Part shown: positions 40,067-60,276 of the stretch, piece after piece
Position numbering within the stretch: position 1 is the stretch's first letter
Layout of the letters: every line of letters begins with the position of its first letter
DNA from: Hoeflea ulvae
GTDB taxonomy: Bacteria; Pseudomonadota; Alphaproteobacteria; Rhizobiales; Rhizobiaceae
Reading direction: 5' to 3'
Assembly (NCBI RefSeq): GCF_026619435.1
Contig: NZ_JAOVZQ010000001.1
Coordinates: forward strand, 1,495,501 to 1,559,500
DNA length: 64,000 bases
The notes under the pieces: generated by a model
Databases searched by the model: none
Seen by the model: the letters and a program-made list of their open reading frames with translations, nothing else
What the model was told of the DNA's origin: nothing
Translations under genes and position numbers: made by a program

Positions 40067-40153
40067 TGGGATTCCCCTTCCTTTGTTGACGGACGTCTTT
40101 GCCCGTTCCCGGGCCAATTGAAGTCAACCACGGACGTTGCGTCAAGCGAAAAA

Positions 40154-40176
40154 GTTCGTAATATGAACAAATGTGC
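40154..40176. promoter_or_regulatory. Composite 23-bp motif, copy a (putative IclR operator)
   Basis: GTTC (40154) -N7- GAAC (40165) -N4- GTGC (40173). GTTCGTAATATGAAC forms a palindrome-like core, and GAACAAATGTGC an overlapping second one. It lies 88 bp upstream of the polar amino-acid binding-protein ATG and 137 bp from the divergent AcoX-like gene. The identical layout occurs at four other promoters of this region. Confidence 0.68.
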
Positions 40177-40312
40177 GAAAATGCAGCTTGTGGGCAGTCT
40201 GATTTCGGCATTCTATCGGGCACAGGAGGAATGAAGCGGTGGTTTCGACAATTTCAAAAAACATCTGTGCGCTCCGTGCCATGAAGTGGAGTTGGAAACG
40301 GGATGGCGGACC

Positions 40313-41425
40313 ATGCGGATCGGATTGATCGTCAATCCGGTCGCAGGCCTTGGCGGTGCGGTCGGTCTGAAGGGCACGGACGGTCCTGATGCCGTGGCCG
40401 AAGCACTGCGCCGCGGTGCGGTCGCGCAATCGGGGCCGCGTGTACGGCGGGCCTTGGCAGTCCTGGCCAGACGATGCCCGGGAACCACCATCCTGGCCGC
40501 GCCGGGCCAGTTGGGCGCGGATTGGACCGCGGACCTGGATCTGACTGTTGACGCGGTCCCGTCGGGTGACAGCACCGGCACCGCGCGGGACACGCGCCAG
40601 GCAATCGCCGCCTTCGGCGCGGCAGACCTTGTCCTCTTCGCCGGTGGCGATGGCACCGCGCGCGATGTCGCCGCCTGCATGCCCGAAGGTGCGGCAATGC
40701 TCGGCATCCCTTCCGGGGTCAAGATGCATTCAGGTGTCTTTGCCATATCGCCTGAGCACGCGGGACAGGTGCTGGCGGACATCATTGTTGCCAATGACCG
40801 GGTCGGCTGGACCGACGATGCCGAAATCATGGACATTGATGAAGTGGCCCTGCGGGCCGGACATTTGGCGCCCCGGCTCTTTGGTCACGCGCGGGTGCCT
40901 GTCGTGCGCAACCGGATGCAGGCGGCAAAGGGCGGACCGCGTCGCGACTGCTCTGCCGCGCTGGCATCTGCGGCCTTTGAATGCGCGACCAGGATCGAGC
41001 CCGGCGCCCTCTGCATCGTGGGTCCCGGAACCAGCGCCTGCGCCTTTGCCAACGCCCTCAATCAACCGTCGACCCTGCTCGGTGTCGACGTCTTCCGCGA
41101 CGGCAAATGCCTGCTGCAGGACGCAACGGCCAGCCAGATCGAGGCGCTGATCGATGGCGCGCCGGTGCGCATCGTGCTCGGAATCACCGGGCAGCAGGGG
41201 TTCCTTCTGGGCCGCGGCAACCAGCAGATCAGCGCCGCCGTCATCCGCCGCGCCGGCCGGGAAGGCCTCAGGGTTCTGGCGACGGACGAGAAGCTGGCGG
41301 CGCTTCCCGCGCCCTGCCTGTTTGTCGATACCGGGGATCCGATGCTCGATGCGGAGCTTGCAGGCTTCATCCGGGTTCAGACCGACCGCGGAAAATTCAT
41401 GATGATGCGCGTCGTTGCGAGTTGA
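40313..41425 (+). CDS. ATP-NAD kinase-like protein, AcoX family
   Basis: About 370 residues. The diacylglycerol/NAD-kinase fold is shown by 'GLIVNPVAGLGGAVGLKGTD' at the N-terminus and 'LVLFAGGDGTARDVA' (the GGDGT nucleotide motif) near residue 110. 'LGIPSGVKMHSGVFA' and 'CIVGPGTSACAFANAL' are typical of the AcoX group, known from acetoin catabolism loci but without a settled function. The ATG at 40313 is chosen for the family N-terminus; a GTG lies 27 bp upstream. It is followed by the GcvPA-like gene after 58 bp containing operator copy b. Confidence 0.83.
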   Translation: MRIGLIVNPVAGLGGAVGLKGTDGPDAVAEALRRGAVAQSGPRVRRALAVLARRCPGTTILAAPGQLGADWTADLDLTVDAVPSGDSTGTARDTRQAIAAFGAADLVLFAGGDGTARDVAACMPEGAAMLGIPSGVKMHSGVFAISPEHAGQVLADIIVANDRVGWTDDAEIMDIDEVALRAGHLAPRLFGHARVPVVRNRMQAAKGGPRRDCSAALASAAFECATRIEPGALCIVGPGTSACAFANALNQPSTLLGVDVFRDGKCLLQDATASQIEALIDGAPVRIVLGITGQQGFLLGRGNQQISAAVIRRAGREGLRVLATDEKLAALPAPCLFVDTGDPMLDAELAGFIRVQTDRGKFMMMRVVAS

Positions 41426-41433
41426 AACAATTC

Positions 41434-41456
41434 GTGCGTTGTGCGAACCTTTGTGC
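41434..41456. promoter_or_regulatory. Composite 23-bp motif, copy b (putative IclR operator)
   Basis: GTGC (41434) -N7- GAAC (41445) -N4- GTGC (41453), same orientation as copy a. A TTGAAA element at 41422-41427 could be a -35 box. The site ends 28 bp before the GcvPA-like ATG, in the 58-bp gap after the AcoX-like gene, so it probably overlaps the promoter and represses the decarboxylase pair. Confidence 0.7.
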
Positions 41457-41483
41457 GCGAACGACAAGTGAGGTGACAGATCC

Positions 41484-42890
41484 ATGACTATTGAACAGCG
41501 AGCCCATCCATGGATGGCCCTATCGGCGCCCGGGGCGCTGCAGCAGATGCTCGACGAGATCGGCGTGAAAGACGTGGCTGCCGTGTTCGAACAGATTCCG
41601 GCCGATCATTACCGCAAGACGCCGCTTGATCTTCCGCCGGCGCTGAATTCCGAGATCGAGCTGAAGCGGGATCTTGTCTCGAAACTGCGCAAGAACGGCG
41701 ATTGCGAAACCAATCTGAGCTTCCTCGGCGCCGGCGTCTGGCAGCATCATGTGCCCGCCATTGTCGACGAGATCGTGGGCCGCACCGAATTCGCCACCAA
41801 TGTCTGGGGGTCGTATCAGTCCGATCACGGGCGCAATCAGGCCTGGTTCGAGTTCTCGAGCCAGCTCGGCGCGTTGCTCAATCTCGATGTGGTGCAATTG
41901 CCGGTCTATTCCTGGGGCTGCGCCATCGGGCATGCCATTCGCATGGCCGCGCGTCTGACCGGTCGCCGCAAGGTGTTGCTGCCGGTCCTTGCCGATCCCG
42001 AGCGCCTGTCGGTGATCCGCACCTATTGCCAGCCTTCGGAAATGGAAGATCATATCGAGGTCGTCACCATAGCGACCGATCCGACCAGCGGCAGGCTGTC
42101 GATCGCCGACCTCAAGTCCAAGCTCGGTCCCGACGTTGCGGCCGTCTATTTCGAAAATCCGGCCTATCTCGGTACCATCGAGACCGGCGCGGCAGAAATC
42201 GCCGGTCTGGCGCGTGCCGCGGGCGCGGAAACAATCGTCGGGGTCGATCCGCTGAGCCTCGGCGTGATGATGGCACCGGGTGACTATGGCGCTGACATCG
42301 TCACCGGTCCGGTGCAGCCGCTGGGCGTGCACATGAATTGCGGCGGCGGTGTCGGCGGTTTCATCGCGTCGCGGGACGAGGCGCGCTATGTGCACGAATA
42401 TAACGGCTTTCTGGTCTCCATCGCACCGACGGCGGAGCCCGGACAGATCGGCTTCGGCCTCGCCTCGTCGCATCAGAATTCCTATGGCTCGCGCGAGCAC
42501 GGCAAGGACTGGACCGGCAACTCCACCTATCTCTGGGCGATTGCCGGCGCGGTCTATATGAGCCTGCTCGGGCCGGACGGATTCCGCGAAATCGGCGATC
42601 TGATCCTGTCCCGCGCCCGCTATGCAGCCCGGCTGATCGGTGAAGTGCCGGGCGTCAAGATCGTCTGGCCGGACACCACCTTCAAGGAATTCATCGTCAA
42701 TTTCGACGACACGGGAAAGACGGTCGATGCCGTCAACGAGGCCCTGCGCGCGCGCGGTATCTTCGGTGGCAAGGACATATCGACCGAAGGTCACGGGCTC
42801 GGTCAGGCCGCGCTATATTGTGTGACGGAAGTCCACAGCGCCGCCGACATTCGCCGTCTGGCCGATGCATTGAAGGAGGTTTGCCAATGA
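41484..42890 (+). CDS. gcvPA: Glycine dehydrogenase (decarboxylating) subunit 1-like, divergent GcvPA
   Basis: A 468-residue fold-type-I PLP-fold subunit of P-protein type. 'MLDEIGVKDVAAVFEQIP', 'NLSFLGAGVWQHHVPAIVD' and 'FENPAYLG' match GcvPA. The usually conserved 'PYQPEISQGTLQAIFEYQ' block has become 'SYQSDHGRNQAWFEFSSQ', so this is a diverged paralogue. In true two-subunit P-proteins this subunit pairs with GcvPB to decarboxylate glycine with transfer to lipoyl GcvH. No gcvH or gcvT is nearby. The ATG overlap with the next gene (ATGA) shows tight coupling. It may act on glycine or a different amino acid. Confidence 0.85.
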   Translation: MTIEQRAHPWMALSAPGALQQMLDEIGVKDVAAVFEQIPADHYRKTPLDLPPALNSEIELKRDLVSKLRKNGDCETNLSFLGAGVWQHHVPAIVDEIVGRTEFATNVWGSYQSDHGRNQAWFEFSSQLGALLNLDVVQLPVYSWGCAIGHAIRMAARLTGRRKVLLPVLADPERLSVIRTYCQPSEMEDHIEVVTIATDPTSGRLSIADLKSKLGPDVAAVYFENPAYLGTIETGAAEIAGLARAAGAETIVGVDPLSLGVMMAPGDYGADIVTGPVQPLGVHMNCGGGVGGFIASRDEARYVHEYNGFLVSIAPTAEPGQIGFGLASSHQNSYGSREHGKDWTGNSTYLWAIAGAVYMSLLGPDGFREIGDLILSRARYAARLIGEVPGVKIVWPDTTFKEFIVNFDDTGKTVDAVNEALRARGIFGGKDISTEGHGLGQAALYCVTEVHSAADIRRLADALKEVCQ

Positions 42891-44434
42891 AACTGCCCCG
42901 TTATCAGGCCGCTCGCTGGGACGAGCCGGTGATCATGGAACTTGGCCGGCCCGGCGCCCGTGGACAATTGTTCCCCGCGCCCGAACCGGAAACCGGCAAG
43001 GCGGAAATCCCTGCCGCGATGCAACGTCGGGATCGCCCCGAATTGCCGGAAATCACCGAATTCGAGGCGCAACGTCATTATCTGCATCTCTCGCAGATGA
43101 CACTCGGCATGATGGGGGTCAGCCTGTTCGGCACCTGCACCATGAAATACAATTCCAAGACTGCGGAAGCGGCGACCTTGCGGCCGGAACTGGCCGAGGT
43201 TCACCCCTACCAGCATCCCGACACGCTGCAGGGCGTGCTCGAGATCATCCATGATTTCGACGTGATCCTGCGCAGTCTCTCGGGCATGGACCAGTTTGTC
43301 TTCCAGGCCGGTGGCGGCGCCGACGCGGCCTACACCATGGCAGCGCTTGCGCGGGCCTATTGGGCCGATCGCGGCGAACTGGGCGAACGTACCGAAATGG
43401 TCACGTCGATCCAGGCGCATCCCTGCAATCCGGCAACCGCCGCTGCCGCCGGCTTCACCGTGGTCAATCTGCCGCTGGAAGAAAACGGCTATCCATCGCT
43501 TGATGCGCTGAAGGCGGCAATCGGCCCGAAGACCGCGCTGCTGATGATAAACAATCCCGACGATATGGGCATCTACAATCCCGAGATCCGGGAATGGGTG
43601 CGGCTGGCCAAGGAAGCCGGCGCCCTGTGCTTTTACGACCATGCCAATTTCAACGGCGTGATGAGCAAGCTTTCGGCGCGCGAGCTGGGTTTTGATGCCT
43701 GCATGTTCATGCTGCACAAGACCTTTGGCGCGCCCAAGGCTGGCGGCGGCCCGGCTGTCGGCGCCTTTGGCTGCTCGGACGCCCTGGCCCCCTATCTGCC
43801 GGCCCCGGTTGTGGTCAAGCAGGACGGCAAATATCTGCTTGATGATGACCGCCCGAAATCTCTGGGCAAGATCCGCGAATTCTGGGGCAACGTCCCTCAG
43901 GTGGTCAAGGCCTATGCCTGGGCCCGGGCCATGGGGGCGGACGGCATTGCCATGGCATCCGACATTTCGGTGGTGGCCAACAACTACATGGACAAGAAGC
44001 TTGGCGAGATTCCGGGGCTGAAGATTTCCAACCCGGAGATCAAGTCGCAGCGCATGGAAATGACCCGCTGGTCGCTTGGCCCGCTGGCTGAAGAGACCGG
44101 CGTGGGCACCGTCGATTTCGCCAACCGGATGGCCGATTTCGGCATCGACCCCTGGTGGATGAGCCATGAGCCCTGGATCGTCGCCGAACCTTTCACGCCC
44201 GAGGCCGGCGAGCTCTGGTCAAAACAAGACATCGATCTCTGGATCGGCGTGGTTGCGCAGATTGCCCGCGAGGCGCGCGAGACGCCCGAACTGGTCAAGA
44301 CGGCGCCGCACAATCAGGCCATCGCTCAGGTGGATGGCAGCGTGTTTGATGATCCGGAAGCCTGGGCCATGACCTGGCGTGCCTGGCAGCGCAAGCGCGG
44401 CGCCTCGGGCAAGGCAGCCAGCGGCGGGGTCTGA
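42887..44434 (+). CDS. gcvPB: Glycine dehydrogenase (decarboxylating) subunit 2-like, divergent GcvPB
   Basis: About 515 residues. The PLP Lys is in 'FMLHKTFGAPKAGGGPAVG', aligning with 'NLHKTF..PHGGGGPG' of GcvPB; the His-Gly before the glycine loop is changed to Lys-Ala. 'SLFGTCTMKYNSK' and 'VFQAGGGADAAYT' correspond to 'GSCTMKYNP' and 'QPAAGAHGE'. The ATG at 42887-42889 follows AAGGAGG and overlaps the GcvPA stop. The altered loop sits where glycine and the lipoyl arm bind, so altered substrate or acceptor use is possible. The 3' end is convergent with a DadA-like gene. Confidence 0.85.
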   Translation: MKLPRYQAARWDEPVIMELGRPGARGQLFPAPEPETGKAEIPAAMQRRDRPELPEITEFEAQRHYLHLSQMTLGMMGVSLFGTCTMKYNSKTAEAATLRPELAEVHPYQHPDTLQGVLEIIHDFDVILRSLSGMDQFVFQAGGGADAAYTMAALARAYWADRGELGERTEMVTSIQAHPCNPATAAAAGFTVVNLPLEENGYPSLDALKAAIGPKTALLMINNPDDMGIYNPEIREWVRLAKEAGALCFYDHANFNGVMSKLSARELGFDACMFMLHKTFGAPKAGGGPAVGAFGCSDALAPYLPAPVVVKQDGKYLLDDDRPKSLGKIREFWGNVPQVVKAYAWARAMGADGIAMASDISVVANNYMDKKLGEIPGLKISNPEIKSQRMEMTRWSLGPLAEETGVGTVDFANRMADFGIDPWWMSHEPWIVAEPFTPEAGELWSKQDIDLWIGVVAQIAREARETPELVKTAPHNQAIAQVDGSVFDDPEAWAMTWRAWQRKRGASGKAASGGV

Positions 44435-44455
44435 TTGGAACAGTCGTTTCGGCGC

Positions 44456-45586
44456 TCATGCAAGCGCCGAAACACCTTCAAGCGACATCCGCGGTGGCCG
44501 GCCCATGACCAGGTCGGCCGTCAGCCGGGCCGTGATCGGTCCAGCGGAAAATCCAACCCATGGAAACAGTGAAAGAAAGAACCCCTTATGGCCCGGCACT
44601 TCGCCGATGATCGGCTTCCAGTCGTCAGTCCCGTTCACGGTTGCGGTCCAGCTCCGCAGCGCGCGGGCCTGCGCGAGTGCGGGAGCCACCGCAGCGGCGT
44701 TGATCATGTTGCCGGTCAGGTGCTGAGGGTTTGTCACCAGCCGGCCGTCCGGCAGGCGCTGCGCATGCCATCCGCCGCCGATCAGGCAGCTGCCGTTATG
44801 GGCCTGCTTGAGCGACAGCTTGCCCGCCGCCGAATAGACCAGATGCGGAATCAGCGGCGCCACCGGTTCGGTTACGGTCACCTGCAACGGCACGCCCTGC
44901 AGATCGATGCTGACGCCAAGCATCGCGGCGATTTGGGCGGCGGCGGCACCGGCGGCATTGACCACCCGGCGCGCCTCGATCACGCCCTTGTCCGTCTGGA
45001 TCCGGTATCCCGTGCTGATCGCCTCAACGGCAAGAATCCGGGTTTGCGTCCGGATGCTCGCGCCGCGGCGCTGTGCCGCCGCGGCAAAGGCAGGCGTGGC
45101 CTTCAACGGATTGGCCTTGCCCTCGGCCGGGCAAAACCCGCCGCCGATCACATTGTCGGCGAGATAGGGCGCATGTGCACGCAAGCTGTGCCGGTCCAGC
45201 ATTTCGATCGGAACGCCGAAGCCGCGTTCGATCCGGGCCTTGGCCTCGATCTGGCGCATCTGTTTCTCGGTCGTGGCGATCAGCAGCCCGCCGGCAAGCT
45301 TGACGTCAAGATCGACACCCAGCTCGTCGCCGATTTCCAGCCACATTTTCTGGGAGGCGACCAGCAGGCGCAGCGTCGGACCATAGGCGCGGGCCCAGTC
45401 CGGGCCGAGGCTGACGAATTCCGGATGCTGGATCTGCACATGGATCGAGCCGGCATTGGCGCCGGAAGCCTGGGTGTTGAGGTCATGGGTTTCGACCAGC
45501 GTCACCTCGACGCCTTCGCACGCAAGATAATAGGCGGTCGCCGCACCGGCGATGCCGCCACCGATCACCAGAACATCAGTTTTCAT
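44456..45586 (-). CDS. FAD-dependent amino-acid/amine oxidoreductase (DadA/HcnC-like)
   Basis: A 376-residue DAO-family flavoprotein. The FAD fingerprint is 'VLVIGGGIAGAATAYYLACEG' (split Rossmann loop at residues 6-25). 'ASGANAGSIHVQIQHPE' is the characteristic second FAD segment and 'NAAGAAAAQIAAML' the third. There is no transmembrane start. Related proteins are D-amino-acid dehydrogenases, sarcosine oxidase beta-type and the small subunit of opine/octopine oxidase. It is divergent from the DapA-like gene, with 52 bp between their starts. A second homologue is at 52926. Confidence 0.88.
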   Translation of the reverse strand: MKTDVLVIGGGIAGAATAYYLACEGVEVTLVETHDLNTQASGANAGSIHVQIQHPEFVSLGPDWARAYGPTLRLLVASQKMWLEIGDELGVDLDVKLAGGLLIATTEKQMRQIEAKARIERGFGVPIEMLDRHSLRAHAPYLADNVIGGGFCPAEGKANPLKATPAFAAAAQRRGASIRTQTRILAVEAISTGYRIQTDKGVIEARRVVNAAGAAAAQIAAMLGVSIDLQGVPLQVTVTEPVAPLIPHLVYSAAGKLSLKQAHNGSCLIGGGWHAQRLPDGRLVTNPQHLTGNMINAAAVAPALAQARALRSWTATVNGTDDWKPIIGEVPGHKGFFLSLFPWVGFSAGPITARLTADLVMGRPPRMSLEGVSALA

Positions 45587-45638
45587 TTTCCACCTTCAAC
45601 CCGGCCGGATCTCTCCGGACACTCATAAGGACCATACG

Positions 45639-46592
45639 ATGACTACGACTTTTTCGGGCAGCTTTACCGTCACCATCACGCCGTTCACGCCGGGAGGGGA
45701 AGCCATCGACTATCCTGCCTGGGAACGGTTTCTCGACTGGCAGGTTGCCTGCGGCGTGCCGGGCATCATCATTCTCGGAACCACCGGCGAATTTCTGACC
45801 CTCACCGATGACGAGCGCACCGCCTTCGTCGATGCGACGGTCAGATATGTCAATGGCCGCATGAAGGTGATGGTCGGCACCATGAATGCCTACACGCCCA
45901 ACGCCGTGCGCTACTCGAAAGAGGCCGAAGACCTTGGCGCGGATGGCTTGATGATCGTCCCGCCCTATTACTACACCCCGACCGAGGACGAGATCTTCAA
46001 CTATTACAAGGCGATCTGCGAGGCGCAGAACCTGCCGATCATGCTTTACAACAACCCGTTTACAACCAATGTCGACATGCCGGCATCGCTGGTGGCGCGG
46101 CTGACCAGGGAATTCAGCCAGATCCGCTACATCAAGGAAGCGAGCCAGGACACCGCGCGGGTGCACGACATCATCGTCGCCACCGACGGGGTGATGAATG
46201 TATGGGCCGGGCAGCGCGTGCTCGAAAGCTACAAGCTCGGCGCCACCGGCTATGTGAACCCCTATGGCAACTACATTCCCCGGGCCTCTGCCCGGTTTGT
46301 CGAATGGGCCGAGCAGGGCCGCTGGGACGATGTCTGGGCAGTCCAGAGCGTGATCAAGAAGTTCGATACCATCATCACCGCCGGCCACCCGCTCTATGGC
46401 CATCAGTGCTACTCCAAGGCACTGGCCGCGGCAGCCGGATATCCCGTCGGCGACGTGCGCGCTCCGATCACCACCTTCGCTTCGCTGGGCAAGGAAGGCA
46501 CGGATCGCGTGGCGCAGATGGTGCCGCTGATGGAAGAACTGGAAACGATCGTCGATCGTATCGAGGCGCGGACGGCGCAAACGGCCCAATAG
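45639..46592 (+). CDS. DapA/NAL superfamily lyase (dihydrodipicolinate synthase-like)
   Basis: About 317 residues, TIM barrel. 'LGTTGEFLTL' binds the keto-acid carboxylate, Tyr is in 'IMLYNNPFTTN' and the Schiff-base Lys is in 'YIKEASQDTAR', the full catalytic set. The ATG at 45639 is preferred because AAGGACC precedes it; the frame is open upstream across the divergent DadA-like start. Homologues include 2-keto-3-deoxy sugar-acid aldolases, hydroxyproline-pathway deaminase (LhpC type) and true DapA. The catabolic setting makes a lysine-biosynthesis role unlikely. Confidence 0.88.
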   Translation: MTTTFSGSFTVTITPFTPGGEAIDYPAWERFLDWQVACGVPGIIILGTTGEFLTLTDDERTAFVDATVRYVNGRMKVMVGTMNAYTPNAVRYSKEAEDLGADGLMIVPPYYYTPTEDEIFNYYKAICEAQNLPIMLYNNPFTTNVDMPASLVARLTREFSQIRYIKEASQDTARVHDIIVATDGVMNVWAGQRVLESYKLGATGYVNPYGNYIPRASARFVEWAEQGRWDDVWAVQSVIKKFDTIITAGHPLYGHQCYSKALAAAAGYPVGDVRAPITTFASLGKEGTDRVAQMVPLMEELETIVDRIEARTAQTAQ

Positions 46593-46642
46593 TCCGGGCG
46601 CTACCGGGACTGGACGCCCGCGCACAGCAAGCGCGGGCGTCT

Positions 46643-47416
46643 TCATCGGATATAGGCCGCCCCGTTGATGTCGATCGTGCTGCCGGTGAGGTGGCGCGCC
46701 CGGCCATGGGCCAGGTAGACCGCCAGGTCGGCGATCTCTTCCGGCGGCACCCATTCGCCCATCGGCAGGGTCGCTGTGACGGCCGCCTCGCCGCCAGTGC
46801 GTGCGGCGGATTCCTCCGACATGCGGGTGCGCACCACGCCGGGCGCGATCACATAGGCCAGAATGCCATCGGCGGCATGGTTGCGGGCCACGGTCTTGGT
46901 GGCGGCGGCAATCGCGGCCTTGGAGGCGGCATAGGCAATGGCGCCGGGATTGGACGAACCCCTAGTCGTCACCCAGCTGCCGATGCCGATGATCGAACCG
47001 GGCGCGCCGGCGTCGAGCCATGACCGCACGGCCAGCCGCATCAGCCGCGCCGGCGCATGGACATTGACCGCCATGGCTTCCTGCCAGACGCGGTCCCATT
47101 CCTCGGCCGGATCGGCGATGCCGCCGGACTGGCGCATGATCCCGGCATTGTTGACGAGCACATCGATCCGGCCGGCGATGGCAAATGCCTCCGCCCAGAA
47201 ACGTTCGACCTCGGCCATGTCGCTGAAATCGGCCTGGATAAGATGGGCCTGGCCCGGCCTGGCATCGCCGAGAGCGTCTTCGGCGCCGGCGCGGTCGCCG
47301 CCATAATGGGCAATGACAGTCGCGCCGGCATCGATCATGGCTCTTGCGGTCGCAGCGCCAATCCCCTTGGAGGCGCCGGTGACGAGGATGGTTTTTCCTG
47401 ACAGGTCGTGCAGCAT
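46643..47416 (-). CDS. SDR family NAD(P)-dependent oxidoreductase
   Basis: About 257 residues: 'VTGASKGIGAATARAM' near residues 13-28, 'VNNAGIM', catalytic Ser region 'IIGIGSWV', and 'AYAASKAAI' with the Tyr/Lys pair. The C-terminal 'LTGSTIDINGA' is typical. The ATG at 47414-47416 follows CAGGAG; the frame is open upstream through the preceding oxidoreductase but that is not used. It follows the old-yellow-enzyme gene with 2 bp between them, so both form one operon behind operator copy c. Confidence 0.9.
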   Translation of the reverse strand: MLHDLSGKTILVTGASKGIGAATARAMIDAGATVIAHYGGDRAGAEDALGDARPGQAHLIQADFSDMAEVERFWAEAFAIAGRIDVLVNNAGIMRQSGGIADPAEEWDRVWQEAMAVNVHAPARLMRLAVRSWLDAGAPGSIIGIGSWVTTRGSSNPGAIAYAASKAAIAAATKTVARNHAADGILAYVIAPGVVRTRMSEESAARTGGEAAVTATLPMGEWVPPEEIADLAVYLAHGRARHLTGSTIDINGAAYIR

Positions 47417-47418
47417 CG

Positions 47419-48525
47419 TCAGCTCCTGGTGATGAAGGGTTTGCCGCGCATGGCGGGATTGCAGCGCGCATAAGGGGCAGGCAGCGAGATCTCGGCGCCG
47501 AGTTCCTTGGCGGCATGCCAGACCCAGCGCGGATCCCACAACATGCCGCGGGCGAGGGCAACGGCGTCGGCCTGACCGCTGAGCAGAATGGTTTCTGCCT
47601 GAACCGGCTCCGTGATCTGCCCGACCGCCATCACCGGAATGTCCGCTTGCTGACGGATCTCCCGGGCGAAATCGAGCTGGTAGCCCGGCCCGACGATAAT
47701 TGACTGGCGCTGGTCGAGACCGCCCGAGCTGACATGGATCATGTCGCAGCCGGCTTGTTTGAGTGCATGCGCAAACGCGATCGACTGCTCGAGATCCCAG
47801 CCGCCCTCGATCCAGTCAGTGGCCGAGAGCCGGAGGATGACCGGCCTGTCGGCGGGAAAGGCATCCCGGACAGCCTTGAACACCTCGAGCGGAAACCGCA
47901 TCCGGTTCTCCAGCGAGCCGCCATAGGCATCGTCCCGGCGGTTGCTGATCGGGGAGAGGAACTGATGCAGCAGATATCCGTGCGCGGCATGGATCTCGAC
48001 GAGATCAAAACCGGCCCGCGCCGCGCGTTTGGCAGCGTCCACAAAGGCGGCCCTGATGCGGGCAAGCCCTGCCTCGTCAAGCGCGGCGGGTGCTTCCCAG
48101 CCTTCCAGATAGGCAACGGCTGAAGGCGCGCTGGCGATCCAGCCGTCATCATCCGCATGGCTGATCTGACCGGCGCCGTCCCAGGGTTTTCGGGTGCTGG
48201 CCTTGCGTCCTGCATGGCTGAGCTGGATGCCGATCCGGCTTTCGCCCACTGACCGGCAGAATTCGATGATCCGGGCGAAGGCGGCTTCCGATGCATCCGA
48301 ATAGAGCCCGGTGCAATCGGGCGTGATCCGTCCTTCCTGCTCGACTCCGGTTGCCTCGACCAGGATCAGGCCGGGCCCCGATTGCGCATATTGCCCGAGA
48401 TGGACCAGGTGCCAGTCCCCCGGAACGCCGTCCTGGGCCATGTACTGGCACATCGGCGCCACGACAATGCGATTGGAGAGCGTCAGCTTCCCGATGGTAA
48501 GCGGTGTAAACAGCAGGCTGGACAT
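47419..48525 (-). CDS. NADH:flavin oxidoreductase, old yellow enzyme family (YqjM/NamA-like)
   Basis: About 368 residues, FMN TIM barrel. 'LFTPLTIGKLTLSNRIVVAPMCQY' opens the family (the Cys in 'APMCQY' is the YqjM-type residue). 'GIQLSHAGRKA' carries the substrate-binding His, 'EIHAAHGYLLHQFLSP' the second signature and 'ARGMLWDPRW' the C-terminal FMN phosphate site. The ATG at 48523-48525 has AGAGGA 6 bp upstream. It reduces activated C=C bonds or demethylates amines. It is divergent from the 48633 gene across operator copy c. Confidence 0.92.
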   Translation of the reverse strand: MSSLLFTPLTIGKLTLSNRIVVAPMCQYMAQDGVPGDWHLVHLGQYAQSGPGLILVEATGVEQEGRITPDCTGLYSDASEAAFARIIEFCRSVGESRIGIQLSHAGRKASTRKPWDGAGQISHADDDGWIASAPSAVAYLEGWEAPAALDEAGLARIRAAFVDAAKRAARAGFDLVEIHAAHGYLLHQFLSPISNRRDDAYGGSLENRMRFPLEVFKAVRDAFPADRPVILRLSATDWIEGGWDLEQSIAFAHALKQAGCDMIHVSSGGLDQRQSIIVGPGYQLDFAREIRQQADIPVMAVGQITEPVQAETILLSGQADAVALARGMLWDPRWVWHAAKELGAEISLPAPYARCNPAMRGKPFITRS

Positions 48526-48561
48526 GCCGATCCTCTGATTTCGAGTTGAATCAAATAATTC

Positions 48562-48584
48562 GTGCGTTATAGTAACATTTGTGC
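48562..48584. promoter_or_regulatory. Composite 23-bp motif, copy c (putative IclR operator)
   Basis: GTGC (48562) -N7- TAAC (48573) -N4- GTGC (48581), same orientation as copies a and b. It overlaps a possible rightward -10 box, TATAGT (48568-48573), whose -35 would be TTGAAT (48546-48551, 16-bp spacing). It lies 37 bp from the leftward oxidoreductase ATG and 49 bp from the rightward TIM-barrel ATG, so one bound protein could block both. Confidence 0.68.
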
Positions 48585-48632
48585 GCAAATGAACATGTCA
48601 GGAGAGTCCTGACAAGCGAAAAGGAATCTTTT

Positions 48633-49472
48633 ATGCCCGGAACAGACGTTGCAGCCAGCACCTTTCCCTTTCTCTACTCGCATGGCGGCCTCGACGCGCT
48701 GAAGCATTTGCGCGGCCTGGGCTATGACAAGTTCGAGATGATGATTTTCCCGCCGCATTGCTGGCCGGCCGAGATGACGGCTGCGGATCGGCGTGCGGGC
48801 CGCGACTGGCTGGAAGGCGAAGGCTGCAGCCTGACCTCGTTCTGCTACCCGCTTCTCGACAACAATCCCAACAGCGTCGACAAGCTGATGCGTGACTACA
48901 CGCTTGATCGCTACCGGGAAGCTATTGATCTGGCGTCCGAATGGAACTGCCCCTATCTCGTCGCCATTCCCGGGCCGGTCAACAGCCTGATCAATCCGCC
49001 GACGGATTGGATGCTGGAATGGTTCGTGGAAGGCATGAAGGAACTGGTTGCGCATGCCAAGGGCAGTGGCGTGACGCTGCTTCTGGAAAATGTTCCCTTC
49101 ACCTTCCTGCCCACGGCGCAGGACATGAAGGACACCGCAGCGCTGATTGATCCGTCCATCGGCGTCAATTTCGACATCTGCAACTCCGCTTTCATCAAGG
49201 AGGACCCGGCAGAGGCGATCCGGATGCTCGGCGACCTGGTCAAGAACGTCCATATTTCCGATTCGGGCCCCGACGAGTTCAAGCATGAACGGCTGGGTTC
49301 GGGCATCGTCGATCCGGGCCCGTCCTTCAAGGCCATGCAGGATATCGGCTATCAGGGCGCCACAGTGATGGAGATCATCACCGACGCGCTCGATCCGAAT
49401 GCCGATCCGGATGGCGACATCCGCGCCAGCCATGCCATCCTTGCGCAGCATGGCTGGAAGCCGCTGGGCTGA
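48633..49472 (+). CDS. Sugar phosphate isomerase/epimerase, TIM barrel
   Basis: About 279 residues of the xylose-isomerase-like/AP-endonuclease 2 fold. 'TLLLENVPFTF' supplies the first metal Glu, 'VNFDICNSAFIKED' an Asp, 'VKNVHISDSGPDEFKHERLGSG' the His and Asp ligands, and 'GATVMEIITD' the final Glu. The 'H.R.G.G..D' pattern is typical of hydroxypyruvate isomerase/epimerase relatives. The ATG at 48633 is preceded by AAAGGA. It is divergent from the old yellow enzyme and convergent with the next SDR (2 bp apart). Confidence 0.87.
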   Translation: MPGTDVAASTFPFLYSHGGLDALKHLRGLGYDKFEMMIFPPHCWPAEMTAADRRAGRDWLEGEGCSLTSFCYPLLDNNPNSVDKLMRDYTLDRYREAIDLASEWNCPYLVAIPGPVNSLINPPTDWMLEWFVEGMKELVAHAKGSGVTLLLENVPFTFLPTAQDMKDTAALIDPSIGVNFDICNSAFIKEDPAEAIRMLGDLVKNVHISDSGPDEFKHERLGSGIVDPGPSFKAMQDIGYQGATVMEIITDALDPNADPDGDIRASHAILAQHGWKPLG

Positions 49473-49474
49473 TC

Positions 49475-50239
49475 CTACCGCAGGCCGCATTCCACGGGCA
49501 CCACGGTGCCCGTGACGCCGGCTGAGAGATCCGAAGCCAGCCACAGGGCCACATCCGCAACCTGCTCATCGGTTGCCATGCGGCCGGTGGCCGTCTCTGC
49601 CGCCATCGCTGCGAGCGCTTCCTCGACCGAAGGGCCGCCGGTCTTGTGCCGGTCCGCGATGCGGCCGATCAGGGCGTCCGTGGCAATCGGCCCGGGCGCA
49701 ATGGCATTCACCCGGGTGCCGTCGGCGCCCATGTCGAGGGCGGCAGCACGCATGACCCCGATCACCGCGTGCTTTGACGTGGTGTAGAGGACTTGCTGGC
49801 CGTGGGCCTTGTAACCATTGATCGACGCCATCACCACGGCGCTGCCATGCGCGGACCGGGCCAGCGCCGGGCCAAAGGCACCAAGCGTCGCAGCAACACC
49901 CCAGACATTGATGGTCATGACCGCTTGCCACTCGGCGGCATCGAGATCGCGCATTCCGCGCCAGGGGGGAACGACCCCGGCATTGGCCACGACGATGTCG
50001 GCGTGACCGATCGTCTCGGCTATGCCGTTAAGCGTGGTGCCGCAATCCTGTCGTGACAGGTCGACCGGAAATGATGTCCAGTCCGCAGGCAGGTCCGCCT
50101 GATCCAGGGCGCCCGGCAGATCGAGAATAGAAATGCTGGCGCCGGCGTCCGCCAGCCGGTTTGCAATCATCCGGCCCAGTCCGCGTGTGCCGCCGGTTAC
50201 CACCGCGTGGCGTCCCTCGAGATTCCGGGTCAATGTCAT
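49475..50239 (-). CDS. SDR family NAD(P)-dependent oxidoreductase
   Basis: A 254-residue SDR: 'VVTGGTRGLGRMIANRLADAG' near residue 15, 'VANAGVV', Ser in 'VMASINGYKAHG', Tyr/Lys in 'LYTTSKHAV', C-terminal 'TGTVVPVECG'. It reads leftward from the divergent region holding operator copy d. As one of five SDRs in this region it probably handles one oxidation step of the same pathway; the substrate is unknown. Confidence 0.9.
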   Translation of the reverse strand: MTLTRNLEGRHAVVTGGTRGLGRMIANRLADAGASISILDLPGALDQADLPADWTSFPVDLSRQDCGTTLNGIAETIGHADIVVANAGVVPPWRGMRDLDAAEWQAVMTINVWGVAATLGAFGPALARSAHGSAVVMASINGYKAHGQQVLYTTSKHAVIGVMRAAALDMGADGTRVNAIAPGPIATDALIGRIADRHKTGGPSVEEALAAMAAETATGRMATDEQVADVALWLASDLSAGVTGTVVPVECGLR

Positions 50240-50275
50240 GTTGCGCGTCCTTTTCCATCACGTTATAGGGTATTC

Positions 50276-50298
50276 GTACATTTGTGCGTTATGTGAAC
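50276..50298. promoter_or_regulatory. Composite 23-bp motif, copy d (putative IclR operator), with promoter
   Basis: GTAC (50276) -N4- GTGC (50284) -N7- GAAC (50295), the reverse-complement arrangement of copies a-c. A plausible rightward promoter TTGCGC (50241-50246), 17-bp spacer, TATAGG (50264-50269) lies directly upstream, so the motif would cover the transcription start. It ends 25 bp before the 50323 gene and is 37 bp from the divergent SDR. Confidence 0.72.
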
Positions 50299-50322
50299 GA
50301 AATTGACAAGAAGTGAAATGCC

Positions 50323-51270
50323 ATGAGCCAGGAAGTCCATCTCGTCGTTCTCGGAGCCGGATCGATTGGCGTTTCCTTTGCGGCTGTTTTCCGGGATGCG
50401 GGTTTCTCGGTCACCATTTGTGATCCCGACCCGGCCCGGCGCGACGCTGCGGTTGAGGCTGTTGATGCCCAGAAGGCCGCCATCCGGCTTGCCAATCTTG
50501 AAAAAGGCGGAGCCGGGCCGTTGTCGGTTGTTGCCAGCGCCGATGATGTACTCGCCAAGGCCGCACTGGTCATCGAGGCCGGCCCGGAACGGCTTGAAGC
50601 CAAACAGGCAATTTTTGCGACCCTGCTTGCGCGCGCTGCGCCGGATACGATCCTCGCCACCGCATCCTCGGCAATCCCGATGTCGAGGATCCTGCCCGAT
50701 CCCGCCGATCAGGCGCGCTGTCTTGTGGCCCATCCGGTCAACCCGCCCGCCGTCCTCCGCCTGATAGAATTGTGCCCGGCTCCCGCCACGACAGCCGCTG
50801 CCATGGAGCGGGCCGCCTCCCTGTTCGACCAGGCCGGTTTCCGGGCAGTGCGTCTGGGGCACGAGATCGAGGGCTTCGTGCTCAACCGGTTGCAGGGCGC
50901 GGTGCTGCGCGAAGCCTATCGCCTGGTCGATGGCGGGGTGATCGGCGCTGAGGATCTGGATGCGGTCATGCGGCTTGGCCTTGGCCCCCGCTGGGCCTTG
51001 TCCGGTCCGTTCGAGACGGCTGAGTTGAACACGCCTGGCGGCATTCGCGCGCATGCGGCGCGGATGGGCCCTGCCTACAAGGCGATGGGCGAAGCCCGTG
51101 GCGAAACCGGTTGCACCTGGTCCGAGCAACTGGTTTCGCAGGTAGAGGCCGAAAGGCGGGCAATTATGCCCCTGGAAGCCCTTCCGCAACGGGCCAACTG
51201 GCGTGTAAAGGCTGTCGCACGCCTGATTGCAGCCCGTGACGCGCTGCTGGGAGATGCAGATGAACGATGA
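50323..51270 (+). CDS. 3-hydroxyacyl-CoA dehydrogenase family NAD-dependent dehydrogenase
   Basis: A 315-residue protein. The N-terminal Rossmann site is 'VLGAGSIGVSFAAVFRDAG', 'IEAGPERLEAKQAIF' and 'ATASSAIPMSRI' are the conserved interior segments, and 'VAHPVNPPAVLRLIEL' carries the catalytic His. The C-terminal helical domain includes 'GFVLNRLQGAVLREAYRLV'. The motif pattern resembles gulonate 3-dehydrogenase and carnitine dehydrogenase more than fatty-acid enzymes, so a hydroxy acid substrate is likely. It overlaps the flavoprotein gene by 11 bp. Confidence 0.88.
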   Translation: MSQEVHLVVLGAGSIGVSFAAVFRDAGFSVTICDPDPARRDAAVEAVDAQKAAIRLANLEKGGAGPLSVVASADDVLAKAALVIEAGPERLEAKQAIFATLLARAAPDTILATASSAIPMSRILPDPADQARCLVAHPVNPPAVLRLIELCPAPATTAAAMERAASLFDQAGFRAVRLGHEIEGFVLNRLQGAVLREAYRLVDGGVIGAEDLDAVMRLGLGPRWALSGPFETAELNTPGGIRAHAARMGPAYKAMGEARGETGCTWSEQLVSQVEAERRAIMPLEALPQRANWRVKAVARLIAARDALLGDADER

Positions 51271-52939
51271 ACCGGTGACGATCGAATTTGACGGCAAGCC
51301 GGTCCGCGTCCGCGATGGCCAGTCGATCGCTGCAGCGCTGACAGAGGCGGGACAACGCCCGTTCAGAATGACGGTCAAAGGCGCGCAACGCGGCATGTTC
51401 TGCGGCATGGGTGTCTGCCAGGACTGTCTCGTCAGCGTGGACGGCGTACCGAACCAGCGTGCCTGCATGACGCCGGCGCGCCAGGGCATGCAGGTGGCCA
51501 CACAGGTGGCGCTCGCACCGCTGACGGCACCGGCGGCATCACAAGCTGCTTCGTCGCCCGGTCGGAAGATTTCACCCGACGTGCTGGTCATTGGCGGCGG
51601 GGCAGGCGGGCTCAATGCCGCCATTGCGGCTGCCCGCTCGGGTGCAAGCGTGGTGGTGCTTGATGAGCGCAAGGTGCCGGGCGGACAATATTACAAACAG
51701 ACGGCCGGATCCGCGCCCGGACTGGATGCACAGCAACGCGACGGTGCTGAACTGGTGGCGGCTGCCCTCTCCTCGGGTGTCGAAATTCTTACCCAGGTCG
51801 AGGTCTGGGGCGCCTTTGACGGGCTGCTGTTCATGGCCGAACACGCAGGCCGCGCAGTCGTCGCCCGACCCCGGACCGCGATCATCGCCACCGGCGCCTA
51901 TGAGCGGCCCTGCATGGTGCCGGGCTGGACATTGCCGGGCGTGATGACAACCGGGGCGGCGCAGACCTTGTGGCGCAGCTACCGCACGCTGCCCGGCAAA
52001 CGCATCGCCATCTGTGGATCCGGTCCGCTCAATCTGCAGGTCGCGATGGAACTTGCCCGTGGCGGGGCGGAAATCGTCGCAATCGCCGAGGCGGCCCGGT
52101 CGCCCTTCGCGCAACCGGTCGCTGCCGCCAGGATGGCCTTGTCAAATATGGAACTGGCCGGGCGCGGGCTTGCCATGACTGCGGGGCTGAGACGGCACGG
52201 CATCCATGTCTCCCACCAGACCAGCCTGACCGGCGTGGTGGAGGCGGAGGGCGGTCTGCTCGCGACATTCCGCAACAGCCGGGGGGCGGAGGTAAGCCAT
52301 CTCGTCGATGCTGTCTGCATGAATGACGGCTTTGAGCCGCAGAACGAGATCCTGCGGCTGCTTGGCGCTCGGATGAATTACGATCCGGCTTTTGGCCACC
52401 TGCGTTGCCAGCGCAGCGACACCATGGAAACGAATGTGCCGCAGCTTTATGCGGTCGGCGACTGTGCCGGGCTCGGCGGCGCGCCCGCTGCAGGCGTCGA
52501 AGGCACGCTTGCCGGAATGGCGGCGGCATCGTTCTGCAAGGATGTTCCTCTGCCCGAGACCGGCGACCTGCAGCTTCGGCTTTCCAGGCACCGGCGTTTC
52601 CAGAAGCATCTGTGGAAGCTTTACGATATTGCACCGCGCGACCTCTCGGGGCAGACCGATGATCTCACCGTCTGCCGCTGTGAAGAGGTCTCGCTCGGCG
52701 AACTCCGCCAGGCGCTCGGCGCCAGGCCGGGGCACGCAGGCACTGTGAAGCGCGCCACCCGGGCAGGCATGGGCCGGTGCCAGGGCCGCTATTGCGGGCC
52801 GGTGACCGCACGCATTGTTGCGGCCCGGGATGACCGCGAGATCGAGGATCGCAGCTACTACGCGCCGCGGGTGCCGATCAAGCCGGTGAGCATTGCCGCA
52901 ATCCTCGCCGCACAGGAGCTGCTGGATGGCGAAGATTGA
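51260..52939 (+). CDS. Fused HcnA-HcnB/opine-oxidase alpha-type flavoprotein ([2Fe-2S] + FAD + BFD-like domain)
   Basis: About 559 residues in three parts. Residues 1-80 are a small ferredoxin-like [2Fe-2S] domain ('GMFCGMGVCQDCLVSV' plus a later Cys in 'QRACMTP'). Residues about 105-450 are a two-dinucleotide-fold FAD oxidoreductase ('VLVIGGGAGGLNAAIAAARSG', 'IAICGSGPLNLQVAMEL', 'LYAVGDCAGLGG'). Residues about 475-540 hold a BFD-like cysteine cluster ('VCRCEEVS', 'GMGRCQGRYCG'). In HCN synthase, opine oxidase and D-hydroxyproline dehydrogenase the first part is usually a separate subunit. The ATG 51260 follows GGGAG. It overlaps its partner gene. Confidence 0.9.
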   Translation: MNDEPVTIEFDGKPVRVRDGQSIAAALTEAGQRPFRMTVKGAQRGMFCGMGVCQDCLVSVDGVPNQRACMTPARQGMQVATQVALAPLTAPAASQAASSPGRKISPDVLVIGGGAGGLNAAIAAARSGASVVVLDERKVPGGQYYKQTAGSAPGLDAQQRDGAELVAAALSSGVEILTQVEVWGAFDGLLFMAEHAGRAVVARPRTAIIATGAYERPCMVPGWTLPGVMTTGAAQTLWRSYRTLPGKRIAICGSGPLNLQVAMELARGGAEIVAIAEAARSPFAQPVAAARMALSNMELAGRGLAMTAGLRRHGIHVSHQTSLTGVVEAEGGLLATFRNSRGAEVSHLVDAVCMNDGFEPQNEILRLLGARMNYDPAFGHLRCQRSDTMETNVPQLYAVGDCAGLGGAPAAGVEGTLAGMAAASFCKDVPLPETGDLQLRLSRHRRFQKHLWKLYDIAPRDLSGQTDDLTVCRCEEVSLGELRQALGARPGHAGTVKRATRAGMGRCQGRYCGPVTARIVAARDDREIEDRSYYAPRVPIKPVSIAAILAAQELLDGED

Positions 52940-54053
52940 CATTCTGGTCATAGGCGGCGGCATTGTCGGGCTGACGGCCGCGATTGCGGCAGCCCGGGAG
53001 GGCGCCAGGGTCACTGTCATCGATGCGGCGATCAATGCCGGATCGACCGCCAATGCCGGAAGCCTGCATGTCCAGATGCAGAGCCGGTTCATCCGGCTCT
53101 ATCCCGAACAGGCGCCCAATGTCGAAGCCTCGCTGCCGCTCTATCTGGAGGCGGTGAAGGAATGGGAACGGCTCGACGCCGAACTCGGGCCCTTCGAGCT
53201 GGTCCGCAAGGGCGGGCTGATGCTCGCCGAAAGCCAGGAGCAGATGGCGTTCCTGGAGAAAAAGGCCGCCCGGGAACGGCAGCGCGGGCTTACGGTGGAA
53301 CTGCTTGACCGCCCGGCGCTTGACCGCCTCGCGCCGTGGCTCGGAGCACAGATCGTCGGCGCCGAACTGTGCCGCGATGAAGGCAAGCTCAATCCGCTTG
53401 TGGCGAACGTGAAACTGCGGCAACGCGCCGTCGCGCTCGGGGTCGAGTTCGGCATCGATCGCGCCGTTGAGCTTGTATCCCGCAGCGCGGTGACGGTGCT
53501 TTGCGCCAGTGGCGCGCGCTATGTTGCCGACCGGGTCATTCTCGCGGCGGCATGGGGCGTGGGAGAGCTGGTCAAGGGGCTGGGACTGCATCTTCCTGTG
53601 AATGCGGAACCCCTGCACATGAATATCACCGAAGCCGGGGCAGGGCAGATCAATCATCTTGTTCAGCATGCCGAGCGCACGATCACGCTCAAGCAGTTCG
53701 GATCGGGACAGATCGTCATCGGCGGTGGCTGGGCTGCCCAAAGCCGCGGCAATGTACAAGTCCCGGCCGTTCTGGCCGATTCCATGCTTGGCAATGTCGC
53801 GCTGGCAGCGCGGCTGGTTCCGGCGATCGGCCATTTGCGGGTGATCAGAACCTGGGCGGGAATGAACACCACCCTCGATGGCATGTCGTTGCTGGGCGCC
53901 GTGCCGGGTGTGGAACGGGTGATCATGGCCATCCCAGGAGATGCCGGCTATACGCTGGGACCGCTGTGCGGCAGGACCGCCGCCTGCCTCGCTCTTGCCC
54001 ACACGCCGTCCATCGATGTCGAACGGCTTTCGGCGCGCCGCTTCAGTGCTTGA
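52926..54053 (+). CDS. FAD-dependent oxidoreductase, HcnC/opine-oxidase beta-type subunit
   Basis: About 375 residues, DAO family. The FAD loop is 'ILVIGGGIVGLTAAIAAAREG', followed by 'GSTANAGSLHVQMQSRFIR' and 'VILAAAWGVGELVKGLGL'. The ATG at 52926 has AGGAG 7 bp upstream and overlaps the 51260 gene by 14 bp, so the two subunits are co-translated, as hcnB/hcnC and ooxA/ooxB are. It should oxidise the C-N bond of an amino or imino acid and pass electrons to the fused partner. It is convergent with the IclR gene (11-bp overlap). Confidence 0.9.
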   Translation: MAKIDILVIGGGIVGLTAAIAAAREGARVTVIDAAINAGSTANAGSLHVQMQSRFIRLYPEQAPNVEASLPLYLEAVKEWERLDAELGPFELVRKGGLMLAESQEQMAFLEKKAARERQRGLTVELLDRPALDRLAPWLGAQIVGAELCRDEGKLNPLVANVKLRQRAVALGVEFGIDRAVELVSRSAVTVLCASGARYVADRVILAAAWGVGELVKGLGLHLPVNAEPLHMNITEAGAGQINHLVQHAERTITLKQFGSGQIVIGGGWAAQSRGNVQVPAVLADSMLGNVALAARLVPAIGHLRVIRTWAGMNTTLDGMSLLGAVPGVERVIMAIPGDAGYTLGPLCGRTAACLALAHTPSIDVERLSARRFSA

Positions 54054-54924
54054 GAGCCTGTGAAATCGTGGCTGCCGTCTGCTGCAGCTTGGGCAGGACG
54101 GTTTCGATCATGGTCTCGGCGCTCATCCGCAATGTCGGCGCGCCGACATTGATGGCGCCGACAAGCCCGCCGAAGGAATTGCGCAGCGGAACCGCAATCG
54201 ACAGCAGGCCTTTTTCCAGTTCCTGATCAACGATGGACCAGCCGGTGTCGCGGACGGTTTCGAGTATCTTGCGAAATTCGGTGCGGTCGGTCACGGTGCG
54301 GTCGGTCAGGGCGACCAGCGGGATGTTCTGGATGATGCCGGGCCACATTTCTGCCGGCTGTGCCGCCAGCAGGACACGGCCCGTAGCTGTGGCGTGAGCC
54401 GCAAAGCGTGCGCCGACGGTTATGCCGACCGTGATGACGCGATGATATTGTGTGCCGCTGACATAGACGACCTCGAACTTGTCGAGAACCGCTGCGGAAA
54501 CCGATTCGCGGATTTCCTCGGAAAGATGATCGAGAAAGGGCCGCGCGATGTCCCATGCGCCTTTCGACGACAGTACCGAATATCCCAGTTCCAGGACCTG
54601 CGGCGTCAGATCGAAAAGCTTGCCGTCGGCCACGGCATAGCCTTCATGCACGAGCGTCAGCAAGATCCGCCGGGCGCCGGCCCGCGTGTTGCCGGTCTCG
54701 GCCGCCACCTCGGAAAGCGTCATCTTGCGCCGGGTGCGGTTGAAGGCGCGCAGCACTTCAAGCCCGCGCGCCAGCGAGCTTACATAGTCTCTCGGATTGA
54801 GGCCGCCGCCCTCGCTGTCCTGAGTCCAGTCCGAGGATGCCGTCATCAGACCGGTGCGCTGATCGGATTTTGGGCCCATCGCACCGCCTTCGGCCTGATT
54901 GTCAGTTCCGGGTTTCCGCCCCAT
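54043..54924 (-). CDS. IclR family transcriptional regulator, probable master regulator of the island
   Basis: About 293 residues. The N-terminal winged helix ('SSLARGLEVLRAFNRTRRKMTLSEVAAETGNTRAGARRILLTL', shown in parts: 'RGLEVLRAF' and 'EVAAETGNTRAGARRIL') starts near residue 50. The GAF-like effector domain has 'YVSGTQYHRVITVGITVG', 'HATATGRVLLA' and 'IAVPLRNSFGGLVGAINVG'. The ATG at 54922-54924 is preferred because GGGGAG lies 7 bp upstream; the open frame extends further. It is divergent from the 55096 operon, and the composite 23-bp motif e sits between them. Confidence 0.92.
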   Translation of the reverse strand: MGRKPGTDNQAEGGAMGPKSDQRTGLMTASSDWTQDSEGGGLNPRDYVSSLARGLEVLRAFNRTRRKMTLSEVAAETGNTRAGARRILLTLVHEGYAVADGKLFDLTPQVLELGYSVLSSKGAWDIARPFLDHLSEEIRESVSAAVLDKFEVVYVSGTQYHRVITVGITVGARFAAHATATGRVLLAAQPAEMWPGIIQNIPLVALTDRTVTDRTEFRKILETVRDTGWSIVDQELEKGLLSIAVPLRNSFGGLVGAINVGAPTLRMSAETMIETVLPKLQQTAATISQALKH

Positions 54925-54939
54925 GAGTTCACTCCCCGC

Positions 54940-54951
54940 GCACATTTGTAA
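54940..54951. promoter_or_regulatory. Partial IclR-type motif (two half-sites) before the IclR gene
   Basis: GCACATTTGTAA matches the GCAC-N4-GTNC half of the composite motif with one change in the right arm; no third GNAC half-site follows at N7. It lies 16 bp upstream of the IclR ATG, overlapping its leader and close to the ribosome site, so a weak autoregulatory site is possible. Confidence 0.4.
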
Positions 54952-55046
54952 CTTTCCGCATCGCCATAGCATACGTCTTTGCAAGGTCGCAGCTGAAAAA
55001 TTTGAAAATGACCACTTGCCACCTGATCGAAAAATGGTGTTATATC

Positions 55047-55069
55047 GCACAAGAGTACGCTATGTGAAC
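55047..55069. promoter_or_regulatory. Composite 23-bp motif, copy e (putative IclR operator), with promoter
   Basis: GCAC (55047) -N4- GTAC (55055) -N7- GAAC (55066), same orientation as copy d. A rightward promoter TTGCCA (55016-55021), 18-bp spacer, TTATAT (55040-55045) ends just before it, placing the motif over the start site and 27 bp before the binding-protein ATG. It lies 123 bp from the divergent IclR gene start. Confidence 0.72.
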
Positions 55070-55095
55070 AAAAACCATCAACGGAGGGAACGACA

Positions 55096-56430: not shown

Positions 56431-56440
56431 GATCGAAACC

Positions 56441-56473
56441 CGTGCGGCGGCGAATACCCGCCGCCGCACGTTT
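56441..56473 (+). terminator. Intercistronic 12-bp hairpin followed by TTT
   Basis: CGTGCGGCGGCG (56441-56452) pairs exactly with 56459-56470, with a 6-base loop AATACC, then TTT. It lies 10 bp after the binding-protein stop and 15 bp before the preferred permease start. Same position and type as the hairpin at 23382 in the other sugar importer. Confidence 0.78.
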
Positions 56474-56485
56474 ATGAGTGGAACC

Positions 56486-58200: not shown

Positions 58201-58202
58201 TC

Positions 58203-59297: not shown

Positions 59298-59340
59298 CCG
59301 CGCCCCATTCCAATAATGCTCTATTCTCAGGAGATCCAAG

Positions 59341-60261: not shown

Positions 60262-60276
60262 TCAAGGGAGATAGAC

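Follow-up and report, generated by a model that had tools for sequence, protein, structure and literature searches.

The operators of IclR-family regulators have been assigned to two motifs, namely GTNCG-N5-6-CGNAC (group 1) and TGRAACA-N1-2-TGTTYCA (group 2), and three-box sites uniting both were reported for 32 orthologous groups in the main text of Suvorova and Gelfand (2021; PMC8222616), which also cites the third box as required for PcaU binding and describes tandem palindromes 18–22 nt apart among IclR sites. The regulog considered here was not matched exactly in that main text, where the terms "rhodobacter," "hoeflea," and "trap" have zero occurrences, and PMC12285266 concerns an AraC-annotated PobR with no bearing on this regulon. 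No description of the cluster was found in the literature searched, subscription papers and supplementary tables lying outside the search.

In Hoeflea ulvae, a stretch of 64,000 nt (the window) harbors five intergenic sites that, when all lines of evidence are read jointly, are very probably operators of a PcaU-type IclR protein (54043–54924), which would act as a metabolite-relieved repressor of the surrounding catabolic island and of two TRAP-transporter operons located elsewhere. About 25 genes of unclear purpose would thereby be joined into one regulon with a defined operator, with the two distant transporter operons added.

Operator sites and genes of the island

The five sites are distributed over the intergenic gaps of the island and score 32–39 bits with a refined matrix, which was built on 83 distinct sites that themselves score at least 19.4 bits; the next-best scores across the 64-kb window, 20.5 and 13.9 bits, come from sites 1 and 4 read in an overlapping register. 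Operator 1 (40154–40176, plus strand; 30-nt span 40151–40180; 37.7 bits) separates the minus-strand gene of SBP3, a family 3 solute-binding protein of the amino-acid ABC type according to Pfam (39272–40117), which heads a leftward run of HisM, HisP, GST, and SDR genes, from the plus-strand gene of an NAD-kinase-like protein (40313–41425; Pfam). Operator 2 (41434–41456, plus strand; span 41431–41460; 32.5 bits) lies between the latter and the plus-strand genes of GcvPA-like and GcvPB-like subunits (41484–44434; NCBIfam, above cut-offs). Operator 3 (48562–48584, plus strand; span 48559–48588; 38.2 bits) is found between the minus-strand genes for SDR1 and an old-yellow-enzyme-type oxidoreductase (OYE; 46643–48525; Pfam) and the plus-strand gene of a xylose-isomerase-like (XylI) TIM barrel protein (48633–49472; Pfam). 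Operator 4 (50276–50298, minus strand; span 50272–50301; 35.7 bits) is placed between SDR2 on the minus strand and the plus-strand genes for HCDH, SoxA-like, and SoxB-like (DAO) oxidoreductases (50323–54053; Pfam, the NCBIfam names SoxA and SoxB being below cut-off). Operator 5 (55047–55069, minus strand; span 55043–55072; 38.5 bits) separates the minus-strand iclR gene from a plus-strand operon (55096–63148; Pfam) that encodes an SBP1-permease-permease-ATPase importer, DHDPS2, SDR3, SDR4, and a class III aminotransferase. A weak partial site comprising boxes 2 and 3 only is found directly before the iclR start (54939–54951, minus strand), which makes autoregulation possible; as a general feature this was dropped, the partial site being found in the window and in locus L039 only.

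The coordinates and orientations given in a preliminary description of the five sites are correct, with sites 1–3 on the plus and 4–5 on the minus strand, whereas its claim of one exact layout stands for the spacing and falls for the letters. Each operator consists of three 4-base boxes spaced by 7 and 4 nt (5/5), while the literal pattern GTNC-N7-RAAC-N4-GTGC is matched by only two of the five sites, compared with 0.07 expected from shuffling; box 2 of site 3 reads TAAC, site 4 has GCAC and GTAC, and site 5 has GTAC. The five sites are better described by GTKCR-N5-CGMAC-N3-TGTKCG, where GTKCR-N5-CGMAC is a palindrome made by boxes 1 and 2, and GMAC-N4-GTKC the opposite arrangement, made by boxes 2 and 3. 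Boxes 1 and 2 thus fit group 1, and boxes 2 and 3 fit group 2 with N2 between the AACA and TGTT-like halves, as in the three-box operators described in the main text of PMC8222616. This combination of a group 1 palindrome with a third box in the group 2 arrangement holds over the 83 distinct sites, whose informative columns are GTKC (1–4), GMAC (12–15), and TGTKCG (19–24), with columns 14, 15, 20, 21, and 23 invariant. Among the columns of these 83 sites, those of box 3 rank with the best conserved, in keeping with a third-box requirement and going no further than that.

As to the function of the island, GcvH and GcvT are absent among its annotated genes, and the GcvPA/GcvPB-like subunits may act on another amino acid. 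The nearest solved structures of three enzymes indicated no substrate, and homarine was set aside as a candidate, as the literature found concerned trimethylamine. The sensor protein could help to find the substrate, since a compound that releases it from the operator is probably one of the metabolites of the pathway. Just past the aldehyde dehydrogenase and LysR gene of the island, a metallo-hydrolase, a TENA/PqqC-like protein, a radical SAM/SPASM protein, and an alpha/beta hydrolase are encoded in a row (L068:3266–7359), resembling a PQQ-synthesis set.

Conservation at orthologous promoters

Orthologous loci were collected by means of the IclR protein, namely 22 from named genome records (68–89% identity) and two from the same order (74%), and were scanned with a test matrix 30 bases wide made from the five sites of the window alone, a strong site being one of at least 18 bits. 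Gene order is as in the island wherever a locus is long enough to show it. Strong sites were present in 19/19 IclR-SBP1, 19/19 SDR2-HCDH, and 16/16 OYE-XylI regions, that is, in all 54 testable intergenic regions at three promoters, although the counts are not independent because some loci are close relatives: near-identical loci exist (e.g., L022–L026, or L033 and L035), and the distinct sites among the 54 regions number 13, 16, and 14 for the three promoters (the count for HCDH being from 17 same-register sites). By comparison, 200 column-permuted matrices gave a mean of 0.03, 0.01, and 0.01 regions with a site, the maximum being 1. The usual register of the HCDH site scores 21.0 bits in L033 and L035, where the opposite register scores best.

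Loci with either gene of the pair undetected, or with a gap outside 40–700 bases, are not among the 54. Four of these (L031, L032, L034, and L037) have the site upstream of iclR (20.9–29.1 bits), and in L034 no XylI gene was detected and no site precedes OYE. The suggestion that these four loci have TRAP transporters in place of the ABC importer was not borne out, a deacetylase-like gene being found there instead. The NAD-kinase-like protein, used as a query on these genomes together with G317 and G427, matched in 21/24; a site of at least 18 bits lies upstream of its gene in 15/20 relatives and in the gap to GcvPA in 20/21, with L065 having none at either position. The comparison of these promoters in relatives that the preliminary description had called for hence turned out in its favor, with sites retained at all five.

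The same description had named many equally good matches in coding regions as the outcome that would speak against it. In the relatives, the window-only matrix returned no match in 298,776 bases of island genes and 56 in the other 77,177 bases of L019–L040, so that the sites are confined to promoters there; the coding mask is tblastn coverage, hence the uncovered bases are partly coding, and one SoxA query in it came from a wrong frame. Judged from their sequence, the five sites are not the product of chance.

Genome-wide distribution and the distant TRAP operons

In the 5.1-Mb genome, the corrected pattern GTNCR-N6-KNAC-N3-TGTNCG has six exact matches, five of which are the sites of the window, compared with four for the reversed-pattern control. 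This pattern was fitted after the sites had been seen, and therefore the orthologous loci are the independent test. All eight exact matches in Microvirga pudoricolor fall on a single 79-kb contig, all five in G317 within 42 kb, and five of six in Hoeflea alexandrii within 17 kb, while two genus-mates without the island have two each (controls 1 and 3). With one mismatch allowed, the H. ulvae genome has 11 matches (five in the island, one at a TRAP operon, five others; control 3), while G046, of the same genus and without the regulator, has 10 (control 5); totals were 5, 9, and 3 in G139, G203, and G258, 9–19 in 18 other carriers, and 2–18 in 15 further non-carriers, the highest of the latter being G015, which was found to hold a related cluster. 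Such loose counts were dropped as proof because some non-carriers give totals similar to those of carriers; of the genome-wide scan by location proposed earlier, it is thus the location that discriminates, and not the raw number.

Three strict-pattern matches elsewhere in the genome (L004, L005, and L006) score −4.2, 14.2, and 7.0 bits with the refined matrix, well below the 83 sites. Another led to a locus about 415 kb from the island, a 9-kb stretch in which two TRAP operons (DctP, DctQ, and DctM twice) stand back to back, followed by a GntR-FCD regulator gene (L067:677–7087, at ~1.118–1.124 Mb of the genome). An operator precedes each TRAP operon, the two lying ~30 and ~45 nt ahead of DctP and being given 31.6 and 31.0 bits by the refined matrix, hence the regulon is not local, contrary to what had been proposed; these two operators and the partial site before iclR had been overlooked. 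In Microvirga, relatives of both TRAP systems (DctP 66 and 55% identical) are encoded on the island contig itself, with upstream operators of 27.0 and 21.2 bits. Operators of 38.3 and 29.5 bits also precede another OYE relative (49%) in G317 (L100:2925–2954) and G699 (L101:3164–3193), off the island contigs.

The NAD-kinase marker together with an 89% identical regulator occurs in 2/18 genomes of the genus (H. ulvae itself and G700), and the island is therefore regarded as accessory. Most named relatives with orthologous loci belong to the Rhodobacteraceae, and horizontal exchange of the island is likely. A somewhat tentative proposal, for which the odds are slightly short of even, is that a PcaU-type regulator was recruited to control a catabolic module, as yet uncharacterised and shared by horizontal exchange, that comprises a GcvP-like enzyme in two parts, an NAD-kinase-like protein, and several alternative importers. 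ABC and TRAP transporters might join this regulon simply by gaining the operator, beside the island in one species and 415 kb away in another.

The regulator and its probable mode of action

The iclR gene product scores above the family cut-offs of Pfam (HTH_IclR, PF09339, 53.5 bits against 22; IclR_C, PF01614, 125.8 bits against 24) and narrowly passes the PcaR/PcaU/PobR subfamily model TIGR02431 (295 bits against 284.75, for the ORF 54043–55050). Used as a query on its own genome, it gives three matches at E 1e-5 or better, of which it is the only strong one, the other two being 20–21% identical. The IclR gene accompanies the operators in the loci of relatives, and among 12 more distant IclR loci (41–62% identity) a site of at least 10 bits was found in six (L010, 62% identity, 32.8 bits; L012, 26.7; L011, 20.2; L014, 17.9; L044, 15.3; L018, 44% identity, 33.8 and 32.4) and none in the other six.

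With the PcaU/PobR/PcaR group the system shares the subfamily model and a GTNCG-N5-CGNAC palindrome that has a further box on its outer side. The arginines of the recognition helix (R, RR) are patterned like Arg56, Arg60, and Arg61 of PobR; these residue numbers are those of PMC8222616, and the alignment used here is with 2ia2 and 8eju rather than with PobR. The system differs in that no ring-cleavage or beta-ketoadipate gene is among the annotated genes (window positions 1–33,000 being outside the annotation), and control of beta-ketoadipate or 4-hydroxybenzoate genes finds no counterpart among the 32 window ORFs run through Pfam. Moreover, the regulon here consists of importer, GcvP-like, OYE, SDR, and TRAP genes, and the operators are at or after the −10 region.

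This last difference is seen at four of the five sites. Operator 3 has a candidate −10 box, TATAGT, between boxes 1 and 2, in a promoter TTGAAT-16-TATAGT (48546–48573) detected by a consensus scan whose overall yield of three promoters, one of which is at a site, equals the 3.0 to be expected from chance. The other elements were identified by eye: operator 1 has TAATAT between boxes 1 and 2, operator 4 follows TATAGG, itself after TTGCGC and 17 nt, and operator 5 begins at a candidate −10 TTATAT after TTGCCA and 18 nt, where the consensus scan has no match; CTTGC and TTATAT-like elements are shared by many SBP1 promoters of relatives but not by all. In 10/17 sequences of the OYE/XylI promoter, a fourth box creates another palindrome at a distance of 19 nt (one base less in two), which suits a tetramer and matches the tandem palindromes in the main text of PMC8222616.

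Since such positions would place the regulator at the core promoter, the favored mode of action is repression that a metabolite lifts. Probably dimeric or tetrameric when bound, the regulator would occupy the three-box site at the −10 box or shortly after it and keep the operons from being transcribed until a metabolite of the pathway appears. Under its control would then be two importers, the NAD-kinase-like and GcvPA/B-like proteins, flavin oxidoreductases, SDRs, aldolase/dehydratase types, and the aminotransferase, plus the two TRAP operons; we infer binding by this IclR protein, repression, and induction of all operons by one metabolite. Family membership does not in itself imply repression, because PcaU and PobR themselves are reportedly activators, and are so called in the title of Kok et al. 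from 1998. That the protein mainly activates, or activates and represses depending on the promoter, as known members of its group do, is accordingly an unlikely reading that nevertheless keeps some weight, also from operator 2, which is no more than 50 nt away from the start of GcvPA and has no clear −10 where one is expected. Activator sites usually lie upstream of the −35 element, however, whereas candidate −10 boxes are found inside operators 1 and 3 and immediately ahead of operators 4 and 5.

Far less probable is that the sites serve another regulator, for which a GntR-type gene (L067:7385–8131) and a LysR-type gene just past the window (L068:1902–3032) are near enough to be considered: the motif has the three-box IclR form published in the main text of PMC8222616, the IclR gene stands beside the sites in the loci of relatives, and similar sites adjoin IclR genes of only 48–62% identity (L010, L011, L012, and L014). 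Least probable of all, to the point of being negligible, is that recent descent of the whole island preserved a motif without regulatory role. The near-identical loci and the numbers of distinct sites would fit such descent, but conservation is confined to the operator, the boxes having 1.55–1.86 bits per column while the flanks have diverged within 40 nt (0.22–0.81 bits), and the same motif stands at five unrelated promoters and at the distant TRAP operons. The preliminary assignment of the sites to the IclR protein is thus upheld by their conservation, by their being of the type that PcaU-group proteins bind, and by an IclR gene that travels with them, with the local extent and the literal consensus given up. 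A real, conserved, and widely shared three-box IclR regulon is well supported by the sequence comparisons, and would combine an ordinary mechanism with new content.

Second IclR genes are found near the island in two cases, at L031:1–735 (76% identity) and, in Microvirga, at L102:5557–6282 (41%). G015, which has no close relative of the regulator, has sites of 38.0, 26.7, and 22.4 bits in its related cluster and a 40% identical IclR gene ~8 kb away; this cluster (L106) unites deacetylase, NAD-kinase-like, GST, OYE, DHDPS, DAO, SDR, and ABC genes with the same operator.
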